From NCBI RefSeq assembly GCF_018771565.1, contig NZ_CP076326.1, positions 1,860,001 to 1,924,000 on the forward strand: a stretch of 64,000 bases of DNA. Reading direction: 5' to 3'. Numbering within the stretch: the first letter of the stretch is position 1; each line of letters begins with the position of its first letter. The stretch comes from Thermoflexus hugenholtzii (GTDB lineage Bacteria; Chloroflexota; Anaerolineae; Thermoflexales; Thermoflexaceae). Positions 9,766 through 35,416 of this stretch are shown in pieces. The notes under the pieces are model-generated. The model was not told where the DNA came from. It worked only from the letters and a program-made list of their open reading frames with translations, and made no database searches. A program made the translations under genes and the position numbers.

Positions 9766-9813
9766 CGGGTGTGTCCCAAAATCGTAGGACAACTGCGAGC
9801 AGTTGTCCTACAA
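9766..9813. repeat. Palindromic repeat, copy 1
   Basis: GTAGGACAACTGC at 9784-9796 is exactly inverted at 9799-9811 with a 2-base centre (GA). The 18 bases upstream (cgggtgtgtcccaaaatc) and the trailing AA are identical to those of copy 2 at 20403. It lies in the divergent gap between the ABC ATPase gene and pfkA. Confidence 0.9.
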
Positions 9814-20402: not shown

Positions 20403-20450
20403 CGGGTGTGTCCCAAAATCGTAGGACAACTGCTCGCAGTTGTCCTACAA
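20403..20450. repeat. Palindromic repeat, copy 2
   Basis: GTAGGACAACTGC at 20421-20433 is inverted at 20436-20448 with centre TC. The whole unit including the 18-base left flank is the same as copy 1 except for the two central bases. Confidence 0.9.
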
Positions 20451-22721: not shown

Positions 22722-23555
22722 ATGCGCGTGGTTCATACCATTGCGGAAGCCCGCGCCGTCCGCCGGGCGCTCCCCGGCACGTGGGGCTTCGTGCCCACGA
22801 TGGGCTATCTCCACGAGGGACATCTCTCCCTCGTCCGGCGCGCCCGCGCGGAGAACGACCGCGTCGCAGTGAGCATTTTCGTCAACCCGACCCAGTTCGG
22901 GCCCCACGAGGACTACGCCCGTTACCCCCGTGATCTGGAGCGGGACCTCCGGCTCCTGGAGCCCCTGGGGGTGGACCTGGTGTTCGTCCCCTCCGTGGAG
23001 GAGATGTATCCGCCGGGCTTCCAGACCTGGGTGATCGTGGAGGAGGTGAGCCGCCCCCTGGAGGGCGCCTCGCGGCCGGGGCACTTCCGGGGCGTGGCCA
23101 CGGTGGTGGCCAAGCTGTTCAACATCCTCCAGCCGGACCGGGCTTACTTCGGCCAGAAGGACGCCCAGCAGACAGTGGTGATCCGGCGCATGGTGCAGGA
23201 CCTGAACATCCCGGTGGAGATCGTGATCTGCCCGACGGTGCGGGAGCCGGACGGGCTGGCCATGAGCAGCCGCAACACCTATCTGAACCCGGAGGAGCGG
23301 CGGGCGGCCACGGTGCTGTTCCGGGCGCTGCAGGCCGCGAAAGTCCGTTATGAGGCCGGGGAACGGGACGCCGAACGCCTGCGGGAGGCCATGCGGGAGG
23401 TGATCCGGGCGGAGCCCCTCGCCCGCATCGATTACGTCAGCGTGGCGCATCCGGAGACCCTGCAGGAGCTGGAGCGGGTGGAAGGCCCCGCCCTGCTCTC
23501 CCTGGCGGTCTACATCGGGACCACCCGGCTGATCGACAACCTCATGCTCCCATAG
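22722..23555 (+). CDS. panC: Pantothenate synthetase (pantoate--beta-alanine ligase)
   Basis: ATP-dependent condensation of pantoate and beta-alanine. The 277-aa protein has the adenylate-forming motifs [38 protein letters not shown] and [13 protein letters not shown]. Of the clustered starts (GTG 22713, ATG 22716, ATG 22722) the last is chosen, since the SD TGGGGAGG then sits 8 bases away and the product begins [11 protein letters not shown] as in the family. panD is not found in the window. Confidence 0.96.
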
Positions 23556-24152
23556 CCGGGATCCCACCGACCCATGCCGGCGGGAGCTTCCACCGCCACC
23601 CCCTGCGGGATCGAAAACGGAGGTTCGGGGCGAAAGCCCCTCTTACCAGGACAATGTATTTTTGGTAGGAGCGGCTTTAGCCGCGACCCAATGGGATCAA
23701 GAAGACGGGGAGCCGGAATTGGAGGGACGGCTTCCACCGCCACCCCTTGTGGGATCGAAAAGGGAGGTTCGGGGCTGAAGCCCCTCCTACCAGGAGGATC
23801 GATGTATTGTTGGTAGGAGGCTTTAGCCGCGACCCGGCGGGATCAAGAAGACGGGGAGCCGGAATTGAAGGGACGGCTTCCACCGCCACCCCCTGCGGGA
23901 TCGAAAACGGAGGTTCGGGGCGAAAGCCCCTCCTACCAGGACGATGTATTTTGGTAGGAGCGGCTTCAGCCGCGACCCAATGGGATCAAGAAGACGGGGA
24001 GCCGGAATTGAAGGGACGGCTTCCGCCGTCACCCCTTGCGGGATCGAAAACGGAGGTTCGGGGCGAAAGCCCCTCCTGCGGGAAGACCGATGCGCGGACC
24101 ACGCCGAGATCCTGTCCGCAGGCCTTCCGGTCCGTAGGGAAGGAGCGCCGCG
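23556..24152. other. Gene-free repeat region between panC and coaX
   Basis: The 597 bases consist almost wholly of the 145-bp tandem repeat (23587-24080) and a 70-base leader before coaX. ORFs read through it on both strands because the period keeps changing frame without stops, but they have no SD and repeat the same nonsense peptide. Confidence 0.75.
23587..24080. repeat. Tandem repeat, about 3.4 copies of a 143-146 bp unit of REP-like modules
   Basis: Copies begin near 23587, 23731, 23877 and 24020 (the last is cut off near 24080). Each unit has two small imperfect palindromes: one around GGTTCGGGGCGAAAGCCCC and one around GTAGGAGCGGCTTTAGCCGC, separated by a variable 15-25 base spacer, followed by GGGATCAAGAAGACGGGGAG. 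Copies differ by small indels and point changes. A rearranged relative is at 61696-61911. Confidence 0.85.
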
Positions 24153-24923
24153 ATGTTGCTCTGCCTGGATATCGGCAACACCAACATCAAGGCCGGGGTG
24201 TTCGAGGGGGAATCCCTGATCGCCCACTGGCGGTTCTCCACCCAGCGGCATCGCCTGGCGGATGAATACGCCGCCCTCTTCATGCAGCTCTTCGATCTTC
24301 ATCAAATCCGCCCCCGGGAGATCCGGGGCTGCGCCATCGCCTGCGTGGTCCCGCCCCTGCGCGCGGTGTTCGAGGAGATGGTCCGACATTACCTGGGCCT
24401 CGAGCCCCTGATGGTCGGCCCCGGGATCCGCACGGGGATCCGGCTGGCGGTGGAGAACCCGCGGGAGGTGGGGGCGGATCGCGTGGCGAACGCGGTGGCC
24501 ACCTACCGGCTGTATGGCGGGCCGGCCATCGCCATCGCCTTCGGGACCGCGACGGTGTTCGATGTGATCTCCCGCGACGGGGAATACCTGGGCGGCGCCA
24601 TCGCCCCGGGGATCCTGGTGGCGGCGGAGGCCCTGGTCACCGCCGCGGCCCAGCTGTATCAGGTGGAGCTGACCCGGCCGCCCCGGGCCATCGGCCGGAA
24701 CACCATCCAGGCGATGCAATCCGGCCTGATCCTGGGCTTCGCCAGCATGGTCGAGGGGATGATCCAGCGCATCCAGGCCGAGCTGGAGGAGCCCGCCCGG
24801 GTGATCGCCACCGGCGGCCTGGCGGACACCATCGCCCACGAGGTCCGCGCCATCCAGGTGGTCGATCCCCACCTCACCCTGCACGGCCTCCGGTTCCTGT
24901 TCGAGCTCAACCGCCGGCGGTGA
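24153..24923 (+). CDS. coaX: Type III pantothenate kinase
   Basis: Phosphorylates pantothenate, the first step from pantothenate to CoA. The 256-aa ASKHA-fold protein begins LLCLDIGNTNIKAGVF (phosphate 1 motif), has VGADRVANAVATYRLYGG, a second phosphate motif FGTATVFDVI and the adenosine segment VIATGGLADTI. The family usually has GTATT-x-D; here Thr is replaced by Val-Phe. ATG with SD AAGGAG. It continues the pan gene set, separated by the repeat block. Confidence 0.94.
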   Translation: MLLCLDIGNTNIKAGVFEGESLIAHWRFSTQRHRLADEYAALFMQLFDLHQIRPREIRGCAIACVVPPLRAVFEEMVRHYLGLEPLMVGPGIRTGIRLAVENPREVGADRVANAVATYRLYGGPAIAIAFGTATVFDVISRDGEYLGGAIAPGILVAAEALVTAAAQLYQVELTRPPRAIGRNTIQAMQSGLILGFASMVEGMIQRIQAELEEPARVIATGGLADTIAHEVRAIQVVDPHLTLHGLRFLFELNRRR

Positions 24924-24936
24924 GAACGGCTCCGGT

Positions 24937-25413
24937 TCAGGAAGCGCCGGGGCGCATCCGCAGGCGCCGGGCCAGGAAGGCCAGCAAGAGCACGCCCACC
25001 GCCCCCAGCCCCCAGGCCAGGCCGCTTCCTCCGCCGGTCTGAGGCAGCCCGGCCGGCCGCGGGGTGGGTGTGGGGCGGGCCGGGGTTGCCGTCGGCTCCG
25101 GAACAGGGGTAGCCGTAGGCTGCCCGGCGAGCTCCACGGTCGGCATGGGCGCCGGGGTGGGAGTCGTCGGCCGGGTCGGGCTGGGGGTCGGGGTGTAGGT
25201 CGGCGGCAACGGGCTGGGCGAAGGGATCGGTGTGAAAGTGGGCGCCCCCGCTGGAGCCGCCGGCCGACCCCGAGCCGGGCCGCTCAGGGCCAGATACAGC
25301 CCGATGGCGAAAAGCAGGACGACGAACAGCCCCCCCAGGACCAGCAGAGCCAGGATGAACGTTCTGTTCTGCCCCTCCTCCGGGGGCAGCCCCTCCAGAT
25401 CCACATCGGCCAT
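24937..25413 (-). CDS. Small LPXTG-anchored surface protein with Pro/Thr-rich stalk
   Basis: A 158-aa protein: cytoplasmic N-terminus (1-19), a membrane helix (about 20-43), a Pro/Thr/Ser-rich low-complexity stalk (50-121), the sortase-like motif LPQTG (123-127), a second hydrophobic helix (about 132-148) and a basic tail (ARRLRMR). That tail order (LPXTG, helix, Arg-rich end) is the classic cell-wall sorting signal. Having a second N-terminal helix instead of a cleavable signal is odd. A sortase-like gene lies at 38.3 kb. Converges on coaX, 13 bases apart. Confidence 0.72.
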   Translation of the reverse strand: MADVDLEGLPPEEGQNRTFILALLVLGGLFVVLLFAIGLYLALSGPARGRPAAPAGAPTFTPIPSPSPLPPTYTPTPSPTRPTTPTPAPMPTVELAGQPTATPVPEPTATPARPTPTPRPAGLPQTGGGSGLAWGLGAVGVLLLAFLARRLRMRPGAS

Positions 25414-25494: not shown

Positions 25495-26592
25495 CTATGA
25501 ACGTAGAACTTCCACATTATAAACCGGGACCCGGACGGGACGCTCTTCCCCGTCCAGCCGGATCTCCGCGCACCACACCCGCAGGCCGCTCTCCAGAACC
25601 TGCGGGTCCGGGAGGACGCGAAGGACGGTCCCCGTGCGTCCCCGATGCGGCTCCCGCAACAGACGGACATGCAAGCCGGGCTGGAGGACGACCTCCCCCG
25701 TCGGCTCCGGCGGCGGGGGATTCTCCGTCGGGACCGGGATCACGATCTCCGGGCGGCCCGGCGTTCCATCCGGATCCGCGGGAGGGTGCAGGATGAAGGC
25801 CTCGCGGCCCTGATAGAGGGAGAAGATCCGGAAGATCCCCGGATGCATCGGGAGGCGGCCGAACCCTTCCGTCAGGATCACCGGGAAGGAGAGCTCCCGC
25901 AGTCGGGGCAACAGAGAGGCCTCCATGCTCCCGGCGATCATCCCCCGCACCTGAAGCCGCTCCGCCTGCTCGAGGGCGCTCGGCTCGATCCACCCGCCCC
26001 CCACCACGATGGTGCCCTGGACCATGGGATCCAGGACGCGCGCCCGCAACGGCTCCGCCCCGCTGGTGACCACCCGGAGAACCCCGCTGAAATCTGAGCC
26101 GCTGGACCAGAAGGCCTGGATCAGGGCGCCCGTGGCTTCGAGGATCGCCCCATATGAAGGGATCACCTCCACGACCACGCCGGGGAACCCGGCTCGCACC
26201 TCCAGCGTGCGCGTCCCTGTCCGGATCATCACCCGGCCCCCGCCGGCCGCCACCACCTCCCCGTCCACCGGCGAACGCACCCGCAGAGTGCGCAGCCCCA
26301 GGAGGGTCCGTCGGGCGGCCAGCACCTCCTGAGCGCGCACCGACGTGCCGGGCTTGCGCCGCAGATACGCGAGGGCCCGCTCCGGGGGGACCCGCAGGGG
26401 ACGGGCGAGATCCACGATCACCACGCCCATCGGCTGCTCGGCGGTGGCGAGGACGGTCGTGGCCTCCACCGTCTCTCCCCGACGCACCCGCACCTTCCCC
26501 GGGAGGGGCAGGCGGCGCTCCCGGCGAATGGTCGCCAGGGCCATAAACGTCACGGACCCGGGATAGAAGCGAGGCGATTCCATCGAGATCAC
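25495..26592 (-). CDS. KOW-domain protein of unknown function, operon with the ASKHA ATPase
   Basis: A 365-aa soluble protein. The middle section (SPVDGEVVAAGGGRVMIRTGTRTLEVRAGFPGVVVEVIPSYG) looks like a barrel-sandwich/lipoyl-like module, and the C-terminus (PGLHVRLLREPHRGRTGTVLRV) has a KOW-type turn. No enzyme motif is visible. GTG at 26592 is preferred: it overlaps the upstream stop as GTGA and has SD GGAGGT at 5 bases; an ATG at 26583 is also in frame. It is the last gene of the unknown operon (the LPXTG gene is 80 bases further on). Confidence 0.68.
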   Translation of the reverse strand: MISMESPRFYPGSVTFMALATIRRERRLPLPGKVRVRRGETVEATTVLATAEQPMGVVIVDLARPLRVPPERALAYLRRKPGTSVRAQEVLAARRTLLGLRTLRVRSPVDGEVVAAGGGRVMIRTGTRTLEVRAGFPGVVVEVIPSYGAILEATGALIQAFWSSGSDFSGVLRVVTSGAEPLRARVLDPMVQGTIVVGGGWIEPSALEQAERLQVRGMIAGSMEASLLPRLRELSFPVILTEGFGRLPMHPGIFRIFSLYQGREAFILHPPADPDGTPGRPEIVIPVPTENPPPPEPTGEVVLQPGLHVRLLREPHRGRTGTVLRVLPDPQVLESGLRVWCAEIRLDGEERPVRVPVYNVEVLRS

Positions 26593-28358
26593 AGGGCACC
26601 TCCCAGCGCGCCGACGTCCCAGAGCCAGCGCTGGTTCTGCTCCCGACGGGTTTCCGGATCCTCGGCCAGCCGGAGCGGCCGCCCCCGCCCGTCGACGATC
26701 AGGCCCAGCATCCCTCCCGGGATCCGGATCCGCCGGGGCGCCCGCCGGGGTCCCCATCCCAGATCCACCGGGCGTCGCATCCGGAAGCGTCGCAACTCGG
26801 TCTCGCCGGCCTCGGGGATGGGCACCACCTCCAGGCGTCCGCCCCGGGCCTCGATCTCATACACCGATTCCGAGCCGTCCGGCCCTCGATGGTGGACCTC
26901 GAAGGTGAAGAGCAGCTCATCCGGGGCCACCGGGCTTTCCAGAGCAGGGGCCAGGACCGTGGCCAGGAGGATCCAGGGCCGGCCGGTGATGGCCTCCACC
27001 GCGGATCCGGGGTCCAGGGCCGCCAGGGCCCCCAGGCCGGGGAGCAGGCCGACCGGATCCCAGAGCAGGGTGGTGAGGCCGATGGGTTGGAGGGCGTCGA
27101 GAGCGGCCAGCGCCAGGGCCCCGGGTCGGGTATGGGCGGCGAAGGCGCCGCCGCTGAGCAGGATCGGTTCGAAGAAACGGACGGTCCGCCCGAGCTCGGG
27201 CCAGAGGACGTGGAGGCGTTCCCACGCCTCCGATAGGGCCTCCCGAACGAAGGCCAGCTCGATCCACATCTCCTCCGGGGTTTGAGGGACCGAGAGCGGG
27301 TGCAGGGCCTTCGTCCACACCAGCGTCTCCAGGGCTTCCGGAGGGATCTCCTGGGGCAACCACCGGGCAATGCGTTCGTAACCCCGTCGCTGATACAGCG
27401 ACAGGATCCCCGGGCCGATCCCGCTGTCCGGCTGCACGACCTGAGCCAGCATGCCGCCATAGGCGGCTGCGAGCACCACGTGGCGCCCCCCCACATCGAC
27501 CACCAGGGCCCCGCGCTCCGGGGTCTCCAGGCTGAGATAGCGGGCCACATGGCTGAGGGCTCGGGCGGTCGGGAGGATCTCGCCACGGGCCCATCCCTGC
27601 AACGCCGACAGGCCCGGCAGGCGCATGGCCGCCTGCTCCGCGTAGCGTCGATCCAGCTCCTCCACCACCGGGCCAATGCGCTCCACCCCCGGGCGCGGGC
27701 GGACGTTCTCCAGCACCCGCAGCGGGATCTGCCGCCCGGCCATGGCCACCGCCTCCTCGCGCAACAACGCGTTCCCGGCGAAGAGAAGCAGGGGGCGCTC
27801 CTCCTCCGGGCGCAGCTGGGCCGCCAGGACGGCCGCCTCCAGCAGGGCCTCCACCGGCCGGGTGCCCCCGCCATCGACGCCGCCGGCGATCACTACCACA
27901 TGGGGCTCCGCCGCGACCAGGGCATACAGCCATTCCTCTTCGGTCCGCGGGGATCCATCGGGCGAGATCACCGAGAGCGTCTCAAGGACCCGCGTGTAGC
28001 TTCCCGCCGCCGCGCGATGGAGGCTGGCGAGGCTCCACTCAGGGGCGATGCCCCCCAACACCACTCGCAACGGAGGGGCGGCGCTGAGGGTGATCAAGCA
28101 GACGTCCACCCCCGCTCCTGTGGAGAGCTCGGGGGCGATCAGGATCCCCTGGGGATCCAGCAGGGGGCGCCCGGAGATCGCGCTCAGATGCTCCAGGGCG
28201 CGGATCGCGCCGAGGAGGACATCCGGATCCGGGCCGCGCAGGGAAGTGGGGGCGCTGGCCGCCGCCACGAAGCGGAAGCGATCCTCCACCCGGGCGAACA
28301 GCATCGCCCGGGTCTGCACACTCCCCACATCGATGGTCACCAGGCTCTTCAGGGTCAT
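26589..28358 (-). CDS. Glutamate mutase L-like ASKHA ATPase
   Basis: A 589-aa protein beginning TLKSLVTIDVGSVQTRAMLF, the phosphate-1 loop of the ASKHA (actin/Hsp70/hexokinase) fold. Further glycine loops follow: VVVIAGGVDGGGT, LLLFAGNALLREE, ALVVDVGGRHVVLAAA and ILLSGGAFAAHT. This matches the family annotated as glutamate mutase L (MutL). The family name comes from neighbours of glutamate mutase, but no GlmS/GlmE genes are present here, and the gene is embedded among membrane proteins. It probably acts as an ATP-dependent chaperone or reactivase-like factor for a membrane complex (inference). Confidence 0.78.
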   Translation of the reverse strand: MTLKSLVTIDVGSVQTRAMLFARVEDRFRFVAAASAPTSLRGPDPDVLLGAIRALEHLSAISGRPLLDPQGILIAPELSTGAGVDVCLITLSAAPPLRVVLGGIAPEWSLASLHRAAAGSYTRVLETLSVISPDGSPRTEEEWLYALVAAEPHVVVIAGGVDGGGTRPVEALLEAAVLAAQLRPEEERPLLLFAGNALLREEAVAMAGRQIPLRVLENVRPRPGVERIGPVVEELDRRYAEQAAMRLPGLSALQGWARGEILPTARALSHVARYLSLETPERGALVVDVGGRHVVLAAAYGGMLAQVVQPDSGIGPGILSLYQRRGYERIARWLPQEIPPEALETLVWTKALHPLSVPQTPEEMWIELAFVREALSEAWERLHVLWPELGRTVRFFEPILLSGGAFAAHTRPGALALAALDALQPIGLTTLLWDPVGLLPGLGALAALDPGSAVEAITGRPWILLATVLAPALESPVAPDELLFTFEVHHRGPDGSESVYEIEARGGRLEVVPIPEAGETELRRFRMRRPVDLGWGPRRAPRRIRIPGGMLGLIVDGRGRPLRLAEDPETRREQNQRWLWDVGALGGAL

Positions 28359-28394
28359 GCCCTGCTCCCGCCGGTGCGTATCGGAACAGGGATC

Positions 28395-29018
28395 TCAGGG
28401 TCCCCACCGGCTGAGGGCCTGGATCAGGAACTCGGCCCGGCCGATCAGGAGGGAGATCCCGGTGATGAGGGCGCTGCCGAACAGCGCGCCCAGGGTGAAG
28501 GCCCACACCGCCCGTCCCAACCCCTGCAGAACCCCCCATGCGGCGCTCAGGGCAGGGGACCGCGCCGGCGGGCGGTAGAACTGGGCGGCCAGCAGCGCGA
28601 GCAACGTCGCCGCCAGCCCCAGGGTGAACCCCTGGCCCGCCCCCGCGGCCACCTGAGGCCCGATGGTCCCGAACAGCGCCCCCGCCCCTGCGATCCCCAG
28701 GCCCACGCCCAGGGCGATGGCGAGACCCAGATCCCCCAGGATCCCCAGCCGCGGCACGCCTTTCGCCAGGACCAGAAGCCCCAACCCGAGCTGCAGGAGA
28801 AGAAAAGCCCGTCGGGCCGGATCCACCGCCACGGGAAGCGCCCGCCACTGCGGGATCAGGACGTTCCACAGCATCACGGCCGTGAAATACCCGATGCTCA
28901 GTCCCACCAGCAGGCTGGCGGCCAGCCGATAGACCGCCGTGTCCTCGATCAAATAGCTCAGGATCATCAGAGTGAGAAAGACGGCCAGAGCGGTCCCCAT
29001 GGCCTCCATCGGGTTCAT
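28395..29018 (-). CDS. Polytopic membrane protein of the unknown operon
   Basis: A 207-aa protein with about six hydrophobic segments (starts MNPMEAMGTALAVFLTLMILSY; others near GLSIGYFTAVMLW, LLLQLGLGLLVLAKG, LGLAIALGVGLGIAGAG, FTLGLAATLLALLAAQ, LGALFGSALITGISLL). No motif recognised. It overlaps the upstream zinc-ribbon gene stop by 4 bases (ATGA), so the two are translated together. Confidence 0.7.
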   Translation of the reverse strand: MNPMEAMGTALAVFLTLMILSYLIEDTAVYRLAASLLVGLSIGYFTAVMLWNVLIPQWRALPVAVDPARRAFLLLQLGLGLLVLAKGVPRLGILGDLGLAIALGVGLGIAGAGALFGTIGPQVAAGAGQGFTLGLAATLLALLAAQFYRPPARSPALSAAWGVLQGLGRAVWAFTLGALFGSALITGISLLIGRAEFLIQALSRWGP

Positions 29019-31096
29019 CCCTCCCTCCGGCGCGCGGCGAACAGGCTGATCCCCAACCCGACGCCGATCAGGGCGACAACGAGCATTTGAAGCAACGCCT
29101 GCGCCTGTAGATCAAAAAAGGCCGGGCTGCCCTCGGCCACCTCGCCCGCCAGCAGCAGCGCGTCCCGCAAGCCGGTGGCCACCGCCCGGAGCTGGCCGCT
29201 CTCCTGATACGGGGCCGCATAGGGCGCGATGCCGGCGCTCACCGCCGCGATCACCGGCACTTCCGGGGGGAGGATCCCCCGGGCCTGCTGCAGCCAGCCT
29301 CGCAGGGCCTCCGGGGAACCGGTGATCAGCACCACCAGGCTCACCCGGGCCGCCAGCGGCTCCTCCCCGAAATCCCGGGCGATGGGCAGATCCTGCACCG
29401 GCCGTCCGGTGTAATCAACGGGGAACCGGCGGAGCGGCTGGCTCAACAGGCGGGCGATCGCCACCTCATGCCCGGGCACATACCCCAGATGCATCACACG
29501 CTCCCCATAGTCCGACCGCGCCAGGACCACGGAGGCGGCCTGGGCCGCTCCCCAGGGGCTGAGGCTCACCGTCAGCGCCCGCACCCCACGGTCCGACAGC
29601 CGCTGCAGCACCCCCCTCAGGAAGCCGTCCAGCTCGGCCGCGCGGTCCGGCCCATACTCCACCGCCACCAGCGCCAGCCCTCCGGATGGGGCCTCATCCA
29701 GCGCGGCGACGAAGGCCGTCGGCGGCGTCAGAAAGGCGGGCCGGAAGAAGGGCAGCGGCCAGTAAAGGCCAAGGATCAACGCCACGAGAATCAGGGCGAA
29801 CAACAACCCGCGCTCCACCGCCTGGGCCAGACCGGCCGGGGTCGGCTCCGCCACCCGCTCGCCGATCAGGAAGGTCAGGCCCTGGGCGAGCAGACTCCCC
29901 CAGGCCTCCGCCCGCGTCCGGAGCTCCGGGATCGGCTCGGCCCGAAGACGGGCGGGAGGGCCCTGGACCTCCACCAGCTGGGGATGTCGTGGGAGCACAT
30001 CCACCAGCCCGGCCAGCGGACCCTGTTCCTCCACCACCACCGGCTCCAGAGGCAGGAGCGTCTCCACCGGCGCCTCTCCGCCCTCCTCGGCGACCGGCCG
30101 GAGGGTCTGCAACCACTCCGGCATCTCCGCCAGCACCGCCTCCAGGTCTGTGAAGGGCGGGACTTCCTCCGGAGGCGGGGGTGGAGGCGCTTCCTCCAGC
30201 TGGAAGGGCGCTGTCGCCGGCGGCGCCGTCATGACCTCCTCCGGGAGCCCCTCGGCCCGAAGAGGAGGGGCCTGGGCAGGGACCTCCTCCGATGAACCGG
30301 GCGGAGGCGCCTCCGTCAGCCCCAGCTCCTTCCACCATTCCGGCAGCTCCTCCCCCTCCGGCCATGGAGGAGGAAGGGCCTCCACTTCCTCGCCGCCCGG
30401 AGAAGGGGCCTCGATCGCGGGAGGACGCTCCGCCTCTTCCTCCAGCGGGAAGAAGGTGAACGGAGCCGTCTCCGGCGGGGAAGCCTCCTCACCGGAGAAG
30501 CCCGCCTCGCTGACCGGAGGGGTTTCCCCGAGCTCTGGAACCTCGAAGAGCGGAGGGAGCTCCGGGAACGGGGATGCCTCGGTCTCCGGAGGCATCCACG
30601 GCGGAACGGCCATCCCGGTCTCCGCCTCCGGCGGGCCGGGAGGAGCGCCCTCCTCCGGGGGCATGGCCTCCGGCTCCATTTCTTCCGAGAAGGGAAGAAT
30701 CGGAGCCTCAGGGCCCGAAGGGGGAGCCTCCCCCGGACCCTGCGCTTCTTCCACCGGCGGCGCCCCGAACGGCGGGCGTTCCTCCTCGACGGTTTCCGGG
30801 AAAGCGGGAGGCGCTTCCGGGAACAGATCCTCCACCGCAAGCAGCCATTCCGGCATCCCGGGCTCCGGGGGCGCTCCGGCTGCCTCCTCCCGCCTTACCT
30901 CCCCTTCCTCCTCCGCTTCCTTCAGCCGGACACCGCACTGCTCACAGAACACGGCCTCGGGCGGGTTCCGGTATCCGCAGACGGCGCAGAGGGTTCCCTC
31001 GATCTCCCCGGGGCCATCCACCAGATCTGCCCCACAACGGGTGCAGATTTGCGCCTCCTCCGGGTAAAGCGCCCCACAAACCGGACAGCGTCGCAT
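29015..31096 (-). CDS. Double zinc-ribbon, acidic Pro-rich, membrane-anchored protein
   Basis: A 693-aa protein. Two zinc ribbons open it: Cys4, Cys7, Cys18, Cys21 and Cys37, Cys40, Cys51, Cys54. Residues about 60-390 are a Glu/Pro-rich low-complexity region, probably disordered. A first hydrophobic helix (LLFALILVALILGLYWPLPF, around 435) precedes a folded domain of about 200 residues (ALVAVEYGPDRAAELDGFLRG, LVVLITGSPEALRGWL, VPVIAAVSAGIAPYAAPY), and a last helix (LLQMLVVALIGVGLGISLF) ends the chain. The folded part would be outside the cell, the ribbons inside. Function unknown; gene order ties it to the DUF6754-like protein and the ASKHA ATPase. Confidence 0.75.
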   Translation of the reverse strand: MRRCPVCGALYPEEAQICTRCGADLVDGPGEIEGTLCAVCGYRNPPEAVFCEQCGVRLKEAEEEGEVRREEAAGAPPEPGMPEWLLAVEDLFPEAPPAFPETVEEERPPFGAPPVEEAQGPGEAPPSGPEAPILPFSEEMEPEAMPPEEGAPPGPPEAETGMAVPPWMPPETEASPFPELPPLFEVPELGETPPVSEAGFSGEEASPPETAPFTFFPLEEEAERPPAIEAPSPGGEEVEALPPPWPEGEELPEWWKELGLTEAPPPGSSEEVPAQAPPLRAEGLPEEVMTAPPATAPFQLEEAPPPPPPEEVPPFTDLEAVLAEMPEWLQTLRPVAEEGGEAPVETLLPLEPVVVEEQGPLAGLVDVLPRHPQLVEVQGPPARLRAEPIPELRTRAEAWGSLLAQGLTFLIGERVAEPTPAGLAQAVERGLLFALILVALILGLYWPLPFFRPAFLTPPTAFVAALDEAPSGGLALVAVEYGPDRAAELDGFLRGVLQRLSDRGVRALTVSLSPWGAAQAASVVLARSDYGERVMHLGYVPGHEVAIARLLSQPLRRFPVDYTGRPVQDLPIARDFGEEPLAARVSLVVLITGSPEALRGWLQQARGILPPEVPVIAAVSAGIAPYAAPYQESGQLRAVATGLRDALLLAGEVAEGSPAFFDLQAQALLQMLVVALIGVGLGISLFAARRREG

Positions 31097-31111
31097 CGGC
31101 TTCCTCCCGGA

Positions 31112-31735
31112 TCAACGGCCCATAGGCCGATCCAGCCCCAGCGCGATCCGCAGCATCATGACCACCACCCCTAACGCCACGCCCAGCAGGATCCCCCGAA
31201 CCCCCCCGGTGATCAGGGGCTCCACCACCGCGTGGGACAGGGGACCCCAAAGCAGAGGGAGGGAGGTGCCGCCGGAGCGGAGGATCAGGACGCTCAGGAC
31301 GCCGGCGGTGAACAGCAGGGCTTCGACGGAGGGTCGAGCGCGCAGCCGGCGCCAGAGGGCAAGGATCATAAAGAAGGGAAGCAGCGCGCCCAGCGAGGCC
31401 TCGAGGGGCAGCACCCCATATTGATAGATCCACATCATCCAGGGGCCGGCGAGCCCGCTGCCCCGGATCCATCCTTCGCCTGCGGCGAGGATCAGGACGG
31501 CGAGGGCGCTCAGGACGATGACCAGGCTATACGGCCATCCCTCCCCCTGGAGGCGGATCCGACGGAGGTGGGCGTCCAGGAAGGCCAGGAAGGCCACCAG
31601 CGTGGCATACGCCAGGAGCGTGGAACCCAGCTCGGTCAGGGCCTGGCGGAGCGCCGGCTGGGGCCACAGATACGGCACCAGGGCGAGAAGGATCGCCAGG
31701 CTCAGAACCCCGGTGAACACCACCCGCCGGATCAT
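31112..31735 (-). CDS. Polytopic membrane protein of the unknown operon (second)
   Basis: A 207-aa protein with about six hydrophobic helices (FTGVLSLAILLALVPYLW, STLLAYATLVAFLAFLDA, SLVIVLSALAVLILAAG, ASLGALLPFFMILALW, ALLFTAGVLSVLIL, GILLGVALGVVVMMLRIALG). No family recognised. It lies 15 bases from the zinc-ribbon gene and 12 bases from the DUF6754-like gene, in the same direction. Confidence 0.7.
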   Translation of the reverse strand: MIRRVVFTGVLSLAILLALVPYLWPQPALRQALTELGSTLLAYATLVAFLAFLDAHLRRIRLQGEGWPYSLVIVLSALAVLILAAGEGWIRGSGLAGPWMMWIYQYGVLPLEASLGALLPFFMILALWRRLRARPSVEALLFTAGVLSVLILRSGGTSLPLLWGPLSHAVVEPLITGGVRGILLGVALGVVVMMLRIALGLDRPMGR

Positions 31736-31747
31736 CCCTTCCCTCCT

Positions 31748-32461
31748 TCACCCACGTCCCATCGCCCCCAGCGCGGCGGCGATGAGGAGCGCGATCAGCA
31801 ACCAGCGAAGCAGATCGTGAGCCAGCCAGCGCCCCGGGGCATCCTCACGGGGCGCTGCGGTGAGGGCCTCCTCCCCCACCGCGAGGGACGGGTCCAGAGG
31901 CCACATGGCCGCCGCGCCGGAAGGATCCGGCATGGCGAAGAGAGAGACCGCCCCCTCCCGCTGGCCCGCCTCGCCGGCGAGGATCGCCTCCTCCCGAAAG
32001 GACCCGCCCAGGATGTTGGCGGCGACCGGTCGGAGGCCCAGGGAGAGGGTCAGGCCGGCGATGTAGGCCATCGGGCTGGCGCCAGCCCATTCGATGCGAT
32101 CCAGGGGAGGAGAGGACATCGCCGGCAGCCGGGCGGCCTCCTGGAAGAGATGCCGCGCATACAGCAGCGCCACGGGATCGGCCACGGCCACCCAGGGAGG
32201 GACCTCCCCTGTTCGCACATCCCCCAGCGCCCGCTCCAGGGACCGGGCCGCGCTCAGGGTGAACGCGGCCTCGCCGCCGAGCAGCCCGCCGGATCCCAGC
32301 GCGAACTGGAGGGGCTGGCCGGTCTCCAGCGAGCGCCCGACCTGGAAGGGGATCTGCCGGAAGGATTCGAGGGCACGGGGGGAGAGGCGGATCCGCCGCC
32401 CGCCGTAGACAGCCGCCAGCGTCAGCGCCGCAGCGATCAGCAACAGGACGCCCATGGTCAT
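31748..32461 (-). CDS. DUF6754-like protein with one N- and one C-terminal membrane helix
   Basis: A 237-aa protein. Helix about 3-16, then a domain with QIPFQVGRSLETGQPLQFALGSGGLLGGEAA, PPWVAVADPVALLYARHLF, AGASPMAYIAGLTLSLG, VAANILGGSFREEAILAGEAG, and a final helix (DLLRWLLIALLIAAALGAMG). This order is what I recall for DUF6754 proteins of Anaerolineae; no catalytic residues are known. ATG at 32461 overlaps the stop of a 68-aa gene as ATGA, with an SD (GGAGG). Confidence 0.7.
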   Translation of the reverse strand: MTMGVLLLIAAALTLAAVYGGRRIRLSPRALESFRQIPFQVGRSLETGQPLQFALGSGGLLGGEAAFTLSAARSLERALGDVRTGEVPPWVAVADPVALLYARHLFQEAARLPAMSSPPLDRIEWAGASPMAYIAGLTLSLGLRPVAANILGGSFREEAILAGEAGQREGAVSLFAMPDPSGAAAMWPLDPSLAVGEEALTAAPREDAPGRWLAHDLLRWLLIALLIAAALGAMGRG

Positions 32462-32664
32462 CGGGGATCCTCCCGGCCTGGCCTTCGGGGTGCGGATTCG
32501 AGGACGGCGATCCAGCGGGCGAGAGGCTCCGCGCCGATCCACGGGCGCAGGAGCCAGAGGCCCTGGGCCAGAGGGAACCGCAGGGGCGCGAAGGCCTCCA
32601 GGATCCATTCGAGATCCGCAAACGGAACTCTGCCCACGCGCTGGGGATCTTCCAGCCTGCCCAT
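32458..32664 (-). CDS. 68-aa protein leading the unknown operon
   Basis: MGRLEDPQRVGRVPFADLEW and onwards; a small Leu/Trp/Pro-rich protein without recognisable motif. It is likely real because it has an SD (GAGGTGG), its stop overlaps the next start as ATGA, and a good -10 (TATACT) lies about 58 bases upstream. Longer in-frame starts run into the promoter and the palindromic repeat. Confidence 0.6.
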   Translation of the reverse strand: MGRLEDPQRVGRVPFADLEWILEAFAPLRFPLAQGLWLLRPWIGAEPLARWIAVLESAPRRPGREDPR

Positions 32665-32764: not shown

Positions 32765-32808
32765 CGGGTGTATCCCACTTGTAGGACAACTGCTCGCAGT
32801 TGTCCTAC
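32765..32808. repeat. Palindromic repeat, copy 3
   Basis: GTAGGACAACTGC at 32781-32793 is inverted at 32796-32808 with centre TC. The core is identical to copy 2. The left flank (CGGGTGTATCCCACTT) has drifted from that of copies 1 and 2, so the palindrome is the conserved part. Confidence 0.9.
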
Positions 32809-33875: not shown

Positions 33876-34637
33876 CTATGGGAAGAGGGGGGAAAGCGGG
33901 GGCGTGGGCGGAGGGGAGAGCATGGGCGTGGACGTGGGCGCCGACGGAGGCGGCGGCTCCTCGGTCGGAGGGGCAGGCGGCTGGGAGGCCTCCCCAAGCC
34001 CCTCCGTCGGGGGTCCGCTTCGGGAGGGCGGGGCGGGTGTCGGGGATCGCTGCGGCTCACTCTCAGGCGTCCCGGGTGGGATCGAGGGGGTCTCCGACGA
34101 AGGGGTGGGACGCAGGATCTCAATCACCACCCATGGGGTTCGAAGGGCCGGCGATGGACCTCCCCCGGCAGCTGCAAGCCCCCGCCCCCCGAACCGCACC
34201 GCGGGGAGCCCGAAGGCCAGGGCCATCGCCAGCCCGACTCCACCGGCGGTGGCCAGGGCGCGCTGCCAGGGCTTCCAGGCGTCCGGGAGGGCGGCCCCCG
34301 TGAGAACCGCTCCCACCAGGGTGAACAGCGGCCCCTTCCCGATCTCCCGGGCGGGATCCGCCGCCGAGGCGGCGGCCGTCTGCCAGGCGCTCAGCCAGGC
34401 CCCCAGGGCGCCCACGGCGGCGAGGAAGGCCAGGGCTCCCAGGATCGGCCGGGCCCGGGGCGATCCCCGGATGGCCCAGGGCAGCCACAGGGCGGGCACG
34501 CTGACCATCAGGACCAGCACCCCCCATCCGTCCAGCCCCCGGGCCGCAGGGCCTGCCCCCCAGGGGAGCATCGTCCCGGCCAGCATCAGGGCGGGCCCCA
34601 GCATCCGCAAGGCAGGGGAGGGCGTCTCCGCGTTCAT
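33876..34637 (-). CDS. Polytopic membrane protein with Pro/Ser/Thr-rich C-terminal tail
   Basis: A 253-aa protein with about five hydrophobic segments in the first 160 residues (MLGPALMLAGTMLPWGAG, GVLVLMVSVPALWLPW, ILGALAFLAAVGALGAWL, LFTLVGAVLTGAALP, ATAGGVGLAMALAFGLP), then a low-complexity Pro/Ser/Thr/Glu tail of about 80 residues that is probably outside the cell. No family recognised. ATG at 34637 overlaps the stop of the MNT-HEPN gene as ATGA. Confidence 0.65.
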   Translation of the reverse strand: MNAETPSPALRMLGPALMLAGTMLPWGAGPAARGLDGWGVLVLMVSVPALWLPWAIRGSPRARPILGALAFLAAVGALGAWLSAWQTAAASAADPAREIGKGPLFTLVGAVLTGAALPDAWKPWQRALATAGGVGLAMALAFGLPAVRFGGRGLAAAGGGPSPALRTPWVVIEILRPTPSSETPSIPPGTPESEPQRSPTPAPPSRSGPPTEGLGEASQPPAPPTEEPPPPSAPTSTPMLSPPPTPPLSPLFP

Positions 34638-35416
34638 GGCTCCCAGCGCCCGGTGAGGGAATCGAGGAAAGCCATCAGCTGGGTTCGAAGCTCCCGAAAC
34701 GTCTCCGGCATCCGCTCCGCCAGCGGCCGACAGCGCTCCCACTCCAGCTCGAATCCATCGGTATGACGGAACAGATGCCGGAAACGAAGGTAATCCGAGA
34801 GGCGGGATCCCAGGGCGGGATCGATCACGGCGGGTCGGGATTCCCCCCACGGGCTCATCATCCGCCACAGCCAATCGGTGTGCCCATGAGGGTCGGCAGG
34901 GAGGTCCCCATCGATCCGCACCGCGATCCGCTCGAAGATCCGTTCGACGCCGGTGTAGAAATCGTGCAGGATGCTCCCCAGGCTGCGCAGGGCGAACTCG
35001 TCGGGCTCGCCGGGCCAGCGGCTCATCAGCCGCTCCAGCCGGGCGAGCTCCAGGTCGATCTCCCGACGCAGGGCTTCCGTCGGCTCGATGGGCATCTCCT
35101 CCTCCCCCAGGATGCGGGCGCGCAGGGTGGGAGGGGCGCTCTCCAGAGGGATCAGATCCAGCTCCATGCCCTCCGGAAGGAGCGCCTCACACTCCCGCAG
35201 GGCGTCGAAGTAGCGCTCCGGCGCCAGCCCTTCCACGGCGATATCGATGTCTGAGCGCGCGTGCCAGGGACTCTGGCCGGCCAGGGAGCCGAAGATGAAG
35301 ACCCATCGTGCCCCGAAGCGGCGGCGCAACAACTCCGCGCACGCCCGGGCCGCCTCCCAGGCCGCCGCCCTCCGGCGCTCCAACATCTCGTCTTTCATGG
35401 ACTCGTCGCTCACCAT
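34634..35416 (-). CDS. MNT nucleotidyltransferase-HEPN fusion (MntA/HepT-like), protein 1
   Basis: A 260-aa protein joining two domains that usually form a toxin-antitoxin pair. Residues 35-110: minimal nucleotidyltransferase with G43-S44 then ten residues and D56-x-D58 (GSLAGQ, SDIDIAV). Residues about 145-255: a helical HEPN domain with R213-x4-H218 (also R211-x6-H218) in LRFRHLFRH. In classic MntA-HepT, MntA AMPylates a Tyr in the R-x4-6-H-x-Y motif; that Tyr is missing here (H218 is followed by T-D), so the mode may differ. Coupled (ATGA) to a membrane protein downstream. Confidence 0.8.
   Translation of the reverse strand: MVSDESMKDEMLERRRAAAWEAARACAELLRRRFGARWVFIFGSLAGQSPWHARSDIDIAVEGLAPERYFDALRECEALLPEGMELDLIPLESAPPTLRARILGEEEMPIEPTEALRREIDLELARLERLMSRWPGEPDEFALRSLGSILHDFYTGVERIFERIAVRIDGDLPADPHGHTDWLWRMMSPWGESRPAVIDPALGSRLSDYLRFRHLFRHTDGFELEWERCRPLAERMPETFRELRTQLMAFLDSLTGRWEP

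Follow-up and report, generated by a model that had tools for sequence, protein, structure and literature searches.

Two bacterial envelope systems are known in which an actin-fold protein docks onto short peptides of its partners. According to passages of PMC5832921 and PMC7613929, FtsA works with short peptides of FtsZ and FtsN: it binds the C-terminal peptide of FtsZ (PMC5832921) and the cytosolic tail of FtsN, and PilM binds the cytosolic tail of the bitopic protein PilN (PMC7613929). A third described protein of relevance is GlmL, the methylaspartate mutase accessory protein, whose MutL domain (PF13941) is also found in the ATPase considered here. This ATPase is encoded, together with a set of membrane proteins, in a stretch of 64,000 nucleotides (hereafter, the window) of the complete 3.3 Mb genome of Thermoflexus hugenholtzii (NZ_CP076326.1, positions 1,860,001 to 1,924,000; G+C content of the window, 68.8%). 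The nearest named relatives of the window are Thermoflexus species, in one of which the ATPase gene is 92% identical. Our tentative reading is that eight adjacent minus-strand genes, termed g1 to g8, encode one Chloroflexota envelope complex built on a membrane-docked actin-fold scaffold ATPase (g6).

The original prediction described seven closely packed genes on the minus strand at positions 25495-32664, and both position and strand hold. The overlaps it reported at three junctions are also there (ATGA at g1/g2 and g4/g5, and GTGA at g6/g7 if g7 starts at the GTG at 26592), and the remaining junctions among g1-g7 have gaps of 12, 15 and 36 nucleotides. In addition, the predicted gene types agree with our searches, in some cases through matches below the cut-off: (i) a protein of 68 amino acids (aa); (ii) a DUF6754-like protein; (iii) a protein with six transmembrane (TM) segments; (iv) a double zinc-ribbon, acidic and membrane protein; (v) another protein with six TM segments; (vi) an ATPase with a MutL domain; and (vii) a KOW protein. 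All seven genes are present, but the count had to be extended: an eighth gene, g8 (24937-25413), starts 81 nucleotides after g7 and is counted in the operon because the pair g7-g8 recurs across relatives, the g8 family following g7 in most of them. Both this gene and the motif array described below had been missed. Searches for promoters and terminators gave no clear excess over shuffled sequences.

Conservation was followed with iterated profiles in 120 loci: 40 stretches (L034-L073, of which L034 is the window itself) hand-picked from the MutL matches in 201 Chloroflexota genomes and spread over families, plus 80 loci obtained by scanning species genomes. By profile, g6 is missing in six of the 120 loci, all of them within L034-L073. 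At least two contigs were sampled twice (L036 = L127 and L041 = L082, judged by identical outputs) and, in consequence, the counts of motif arrays, LPxWL open reading frames (ORFs) and g1 given below are slightly inflated. Adequate flanks, i.e. 6.5 kb or more before g6 and 1.5 kb or more after it, are available for 38 of the 80 scanned loci. In 35 of these 38, the genes g2, g3, g4C (the part encoding the C-terminal domain of g4), g5, g6 and g7 stand together in this order, and g8 is also present in 32 of the 38. Since the order is kept among relatives at protein identities of only about 20-40%, the operon is more than a chance arrangement. In the family-spread sample, g2-g5 accompany g6 in 19 of the 32 loci with enough upstream sequence; the remaining 13 have a reduced core consisting of g6, mostly with g7 and often with a zinc-ribbon LPxWL protein.

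The scattering of these genes in relatives, which the original prediction had named as the sign of an accidental grouping, did not appear in this synteny survey, given the 35 ordered loci and the proximity of DUF6754 and MutL genes. DUF6754 occurs in 46 of the 201 genomes (45 over the gathering cut-off), and in 37 of the 46 it lies 2.8-7.3 kb from the MutL gene; in eight the two are on different contigs, and in one MutL was not found. Among 14 control genomes from outside Chloroflexota, DUF6754 was found in none and MutL over the cut-off in none. The grouping can, in any case, split into two modules, since g6-g7-g8 are separated from g2-g5 in three loci (L086, L089 and L124), and several lineages have only the g6-g7 core. 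Regarding g1 (32458-32664), a profile search first matched it only in Thermoflexus (four matches); a search of small ORFs adjacent to g2, with either seed, then placed orthologs of about 60-85 aa directly upstream of g2 in 60 of 70 loci holding g2.

The ATPase g6 (26589-28358; 589 aa) combines a predicted actin-fold (ASKHA) core bearing the MutL domain with a C-terminal beta-rich part (aa 456-589). It matches Pfam MutL with 161 bits (cut-off, 27), and the same model is matched by 63 of 63 members of the g6 family. By contrast, g6 scores only 51 bits against the GlmL model NF040745, whose curated cut-off is 475; four other members of the family score 39-102 bits, while four Chloroflexota GlmL proteins used as controls reach 437-598 bits, three of them above the cut-off. 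Furthermore, the glutamate mutase E subunit (Met_asp_mut_E, PF06368) has no match in the window genome and is over the cut-off in only four of the 201 genomes. The earlier warning that an annotation of this ATPase after glutamate mutase is misleading is thus borne out by profile scores, by which g6 is not a glutamate-mutase partner. As g6 is a clear member of Pfam MutL, the wording "far from" any glutamate mutase is to be understood as a different subfamily, not as an unrelated fold. Unlike GlmL, g6 is about 130 residues longer and has a context of membrane genes.

Nucleotide (ATP) site motifs typical of the actin fold are retained across diverse g6 members, with phosphate-1 (D/E-x-G) in 27 of 28. 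An AlphaFold2 (AF2) model built with 63 sequences has a predicted local distance difference test score (pLDDT) of 93.8 and a predicted template modelling score (pTM) of 0.93. When this model was ranked against known structures, a ranking in which the absence of a family is not counted as its exclusion, FtsA occupied the first nine rows (Z 14.8-14.1; overall range, 14.8-13.7), as exemplified by chain 7q6i_D (Z 14.3 over 263 residues at 4.3 Å), and PilM reached Z 13.1-11.7. Structure searches barely probed the C-terminal part (456-589). The actin fold of g6 is, according to the model, well supported; since FtsA comes first but is tied or closely followed by other proteins, and Foldseek differs, an FtsA/PilM-like role is only suggested.

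A replacement of FtsA by g6 was considered and rejected, as FtsA is above the cut-off in 100 of 101 genomes; the window genome has its own FtsA (G000:C1:426952-428061) and FtsZ (428265-429200) at another locus. Unlike FtsA, g6 does not lie beside ftsZ, gives no match to the FtsA model TIGR01174 at E 0.1 or better, carries the extra C-terminal part and has g1-g5, g7 and g8 as neighbours.

The second main element of the locus is the zinc-ribbon protein g4 (29015-31096; 693 aa). It consists of (i) a double zinc ribbon at aa 4-55 (30932-31087), matched by PF12773 DZR (36.1 bits; cut-off, 27.3) and PF13240 (40.9 bits; cut-off, 25); (ii) an acidic, proline-rich linker that extends from the zinc ribbons to the first TM segment; and (iii) the C-terminal domain g4C (29015-29866), in which an alpha/beta domain stands between two TM segments predicted by hydropathy. 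No match to g4C was found among families or in the PDB; its alpha/beta domain probably lies outside the cell, as far as sequence allows its topology to be read. The linker carries LPxWL-type motifs, of which the window has four copies: MPEWL (30842-30856), VPPWM (30593-30607), LPEWW (30332-30346) and a second MPEWL (30110-30124), this last copy being common to other Thermoflexus loci.

In 84 g4 homologs (five of 89 g4C proteins, with linkers shorter than 150 aa, were dropped), the pattern [LMIVF]PxW[LMIVWF] occurs 670 times in the linker, i.e. about eight times per protein, vs a total of 6.0 copies expected from composition shuffles. As the search pattern itself imposes the proline and the tryptophan, the motif profile is informative at the remaining positions only: E or D is preferred before the motif, D, A, S or E in the middle, L after the tryptophan and a hydrophobic residue three positions further. 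Outside the g4C set, only ten of the 20,748 ORFs in the 120 loci have at least three copies. Nine of them immediately precede g6 or g4C in the same orientation and belong to lineages without g2-g5 or with a split g4; the tenth (in L058) is antisense and is not counted as evidence. In several lineages without the membrane genes, the gene just before that of the ATPase still encodes a zinc-ribbon protein with LPxWL motifs. By a two-copy test, 83 of 104 loci have an LPxWL ORF in the 5.5 kb that precede g6. A DNA pattern for two motifs, run on 20 genomes, gave matches mostly near the rate of the reversed control, with a few inside operons, and is uninformative on specificity.

Two further observations concern this motif. 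In L048, L018 and L050, loci that we take to be Chloroflexia-type from their gene layout and genome kinship, the LPxWL motif lies in the C-terminal tail of g6 itself. The last residues of these tails are aromatic and basic, a loose likeness to the tail by which FtsA binds the membrane. In addition, the FtsZ tails of 30 of 30 Chloroflexota loci have the form [LI][DE][IV]PxF[LI]R, a layout similar to that of the g4 motif [DE][LVI]PxWL, with phenylalanine in the place of tryptophan.

Among the membrane proteins, g2 (31748-32461; 237 aa) falls just under the gathering cut-off of DUF6754 (PF20539; 26.4 vs 27 bits) and has two TM segments around a Rossmann-like domain (pLDDT of the AF2 model, 88.4), which charge bias suggests to be cytosolic. 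Its structural ranking is headed by the RCK domains of KtrA and MthK (Z 10.8-9.2; best case, root-mean-square deviation of 2.6 over 117 aligned residues). Unlike in those proteins, the g2 domain is flanked by its own TM helices, identity is about 5% and other Rossmann folds score within one Z unit; Foldseek returned no match with an E-value of 0.001 or lower. Strand 1 is followed by a glycine-rich loop and strand 2 by an aspartate, which suggests that g2 may bind a nucleotide. Both g3 (31112-31735) and g5 (28395-29018) have 207 aa and six TM segments predicted by hydropathy, and neither was assigned to a family by family searches, where only one of 18 g3 members weakly matched DUF2304. Kinship of g2 with g4C and of g3 with g5 was rejected (hhalign probabilities of 1.4 and 0.7, respectively) and, hence, no duplication is claimed.

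Downstream of the ATPase, g7 (25495-26583 from an ATG, or to 26592 from the GTG; 362 or 365 aa) combines a barrel-sandwich hybrid with a KOW domain, the latter below the cut-off in the window (19.1 vs 22.3 bits). Within its family, RnfC_N is matched in 28 of 65 members and KOW in 10 of 65, while a PDB profile search returned Spt5, NusG and ribosomal L24 (through KOW), as well as NqrA. Unlike RnfC and NqrA, g7 has no matched iron-sulfur or flavin domain, and no Rnf or Nqr family was matched among the eight proteins. Of 108 loci with sufficient sequence, 101 have g7 after g6; the exceptions are L039, L051 and five Chloroflexia-type loci. A fusion of g7 to g6 in Chloroflexia was rejected, as comparing the g6 tails with the g7 profile gave no match (best E, 0.19).

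The last gene, g8, encodes an acidic start, a TM segment, a Thr/Pro-rich stretch, the sequence LPQTGG, a second TM segment and a basic tail (both TM segments by hydropathy). Its ending (LPQTGG, TM segment, basic residues) resembles a sortase signal. An LPxTG-like sequence occurs in 36 of the 82 g8-family matches, which include two extra, apparently unrelated, matches in L103. Beyond g8, fixed downstream partners were considered and rejected as too inconstant: of 114 loci, 22 have a phosphohexomutase gene, usually in the opposite orientation, and 26 a cluster of response regulators. In several Anaerolineae (L087, L109, L115, L118 and L084), g8 is followed on the same strand by a gene for a P-loop-like NTPase (GLSNxGKS), beyond which some of these loci have response-regulator genes.

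Taken as one physical machine, as synteny leads us to infer, the eight products would work as follows. The cytosolic ATPase g6 would serve, as FtsA and PilM do, as a scaffold switched by nucleotide. LPxWL docking motifs on the flexible cytosolic tail of g4, in several weak copies acting together, would bring g6 to the membrane; g7 would be the usual soluble partner or adaptor of g6. The membrane platform would be formed by g3 and g5, together with the membrane-anchored Rossmann domain of g2, perhaps nucleotide-binding, while g4C and g8 would expose parts on the outer side of the cell. By turning over ATP, g6 may then assemble, cluster or gate this platform. The proposed g6-g4 contact is analogous to that of PilM with PilN, where an actin-fold protein likewise sits on the cytosolic tail of a partner in the membrane. 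PilN offers one N-terminal peptide, however, and g4 several copies of the motif along with two TM segments; also, unlike in type IV pili, no PilM, PilN, PilO or motor ATPase family was found among the eight proteins (Pfam and NCBIfam, E 0.1 or better). As for the cellular purpose, the organisation of the cell wall or of a cell-cell filament is a guess, and an attractive one given that Thermoflexus grows as long filaments, according to a passage of PMC8129789. An extended version of this proposal, which we consider unlikely, would be a phylum-wide cytoskeleton-like machine, in which membrane assemblies of g6 are organised by a multivalent, so far undescribed LPxWL code resembling the FtsZ tail, and the zinc-ribbon protein crosslinks g6 or competes with FtsZ for FtsA-like proteins, thereby tying the complex to division or filament septa.

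Several results weigh against a scaffold docked through LPxWL peptides. No array is found in 21 of the 104 loci, which include several lineages with g6 and g7, and g7 is missing from the five Chloroflexia-type loci. The Thermoflexus array is thin, with the four copies of the window being loose and relatives L075-L078 having just one copy each (MPEWLQTL, of the same pattern), because of which they fail the two-copy test; this scarcity in the window's own genus weakens the proposal locally. As the motif lies within some g6 tails, its receptor need not be g6. Moreover, the PilM match came from one g6 profile (E 0.0018) and was not repeated with another, and the structural ranking does not point to FtsA alone: the BadF-type activator 9gai_C is tied with FtsA (Z 14.1 over 221 residues at 3.8 Å), acetone carboxylase, at Z 13.6, trails most FtsA rows by about one unit or less, and the top matches by Foldseek are hydantoinase and acetone carboxylase. 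These latter results speak for the main rival explanation, to which we give a lower probability. Under it, g6 would use ATP to activate or reactivate an enzyme, as BadF/HgdC or diol-dehydratase reactivase do; this enzyme, or the supply of its electrons, would reside in the membrane proteins, and g7 would be an RnfC/NqrA-like barrel-sandwich partner. The reactivase 2d0o (Z 12.4), the RnfC_N matches of the g7 family and the MutL domain in common with GlmL, itself the accessory protein of a mutase, all agree with this rival. Nevertheless, Pfam, NCBIfam and PDB comparisons reveal no operon gene for a cofactor enzyme, the companions of g6 and g7 are membrane proteins, and the mutase E subunit has no counterpart in the genome.

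Next in rank, and only slightly less probable in our view, is a transport or channel complex, in which g3 and g5 would form the permease, g2 would gate it as a Rossmann/RCK-like nucleotide sensor and g6-g7 would be the regulatory ATPase. The presence of two proteins with six TM segments and the RCK-like ranking of g2, with its glycine-rich loop and aspartate, are in line with such a complex, but the closeness of other Rossmann folds and the empty Foldseek search take away from the likeness of g2 to a channel domain, and no transporter family is matched by g3 or g5. It is quite unlikely that the locus is a functionally loose neighbourhood of co-expressed housekeeping membrane genes with no shared complex: even though its splits in three loci and its reduction to g6-g7 in other lineages would be expected then, the order kept at low identity in 35 of 38 loci argues for a common function, and so does the recurrence of LPxWL in g4, in stand-alone zinc-ribbon genes beside g6 and in some g6 tails. 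Least probable of all is a membrane-bound quality-control or insertion system with an Hsp70-like g6, zinc ribbons and LPxWL motifs as contacts to clients or ribosomes, and the KOW domain of g7 near the ribosome. It draws on the alignment of that domain with Spt5, NusG and ribosomal L24, on the zinc ribbons of g4 and on the Hsp70 nucleotide-binding domain (Z up to about 11.6); Hsp70 ranks, however, below FtsA, BadF and PilM, no substrate-binding domain is recognised in g6, and the ribosomal contact is a motif-level analogy only.

Other features of the window were recorded along the way. A perfect palindromic repeat of 28 bp, with 12-bp arms and a 4-base centre, occurs at 9784-9811, 20421-20448 and 32781-32808, one copy being located between moxR and g1. 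Genome-wide, it has 71 copies at up to two mismatches (control pattern, 0) and it looks like a REP-type (repetitive extragenic palindromic) element of Thermoflexus. On the minus strand, a gene at 34634-35416 weakly matches an MntA-type adenylyltransferase antitoxin model (33.9 bits; cut-off, 60). Finally, several overlapping ORFs at about 23510-24283 have repeated Arg/Pro-rich stretches in common, which suggests an intergenic repeat; they are flanked by genes that, from their translations, we take to be panC-like and coaX-like.

In the open literature of PubMed Central, no description was found of this operon, of DUF6754 or of "glutamate mutase L" in Chloroflexi. The individual domains have familiar folds; for the assembly of the eight genes, our searches met no described system of the same composition. 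A large bacterial phylum keeps an eight-gene membrane set whose parts carry no known role. Its ATPase easily receives a name taken from glutamate mutase and so escapes notice. A concrete handle on this set is the repeated Pro-Trp motif, from which a peptide contact can be predicted. Should the actin-fold reading be true, g6 would be another peptide-docked actin-fold scaffold beside FtsA and PilM.

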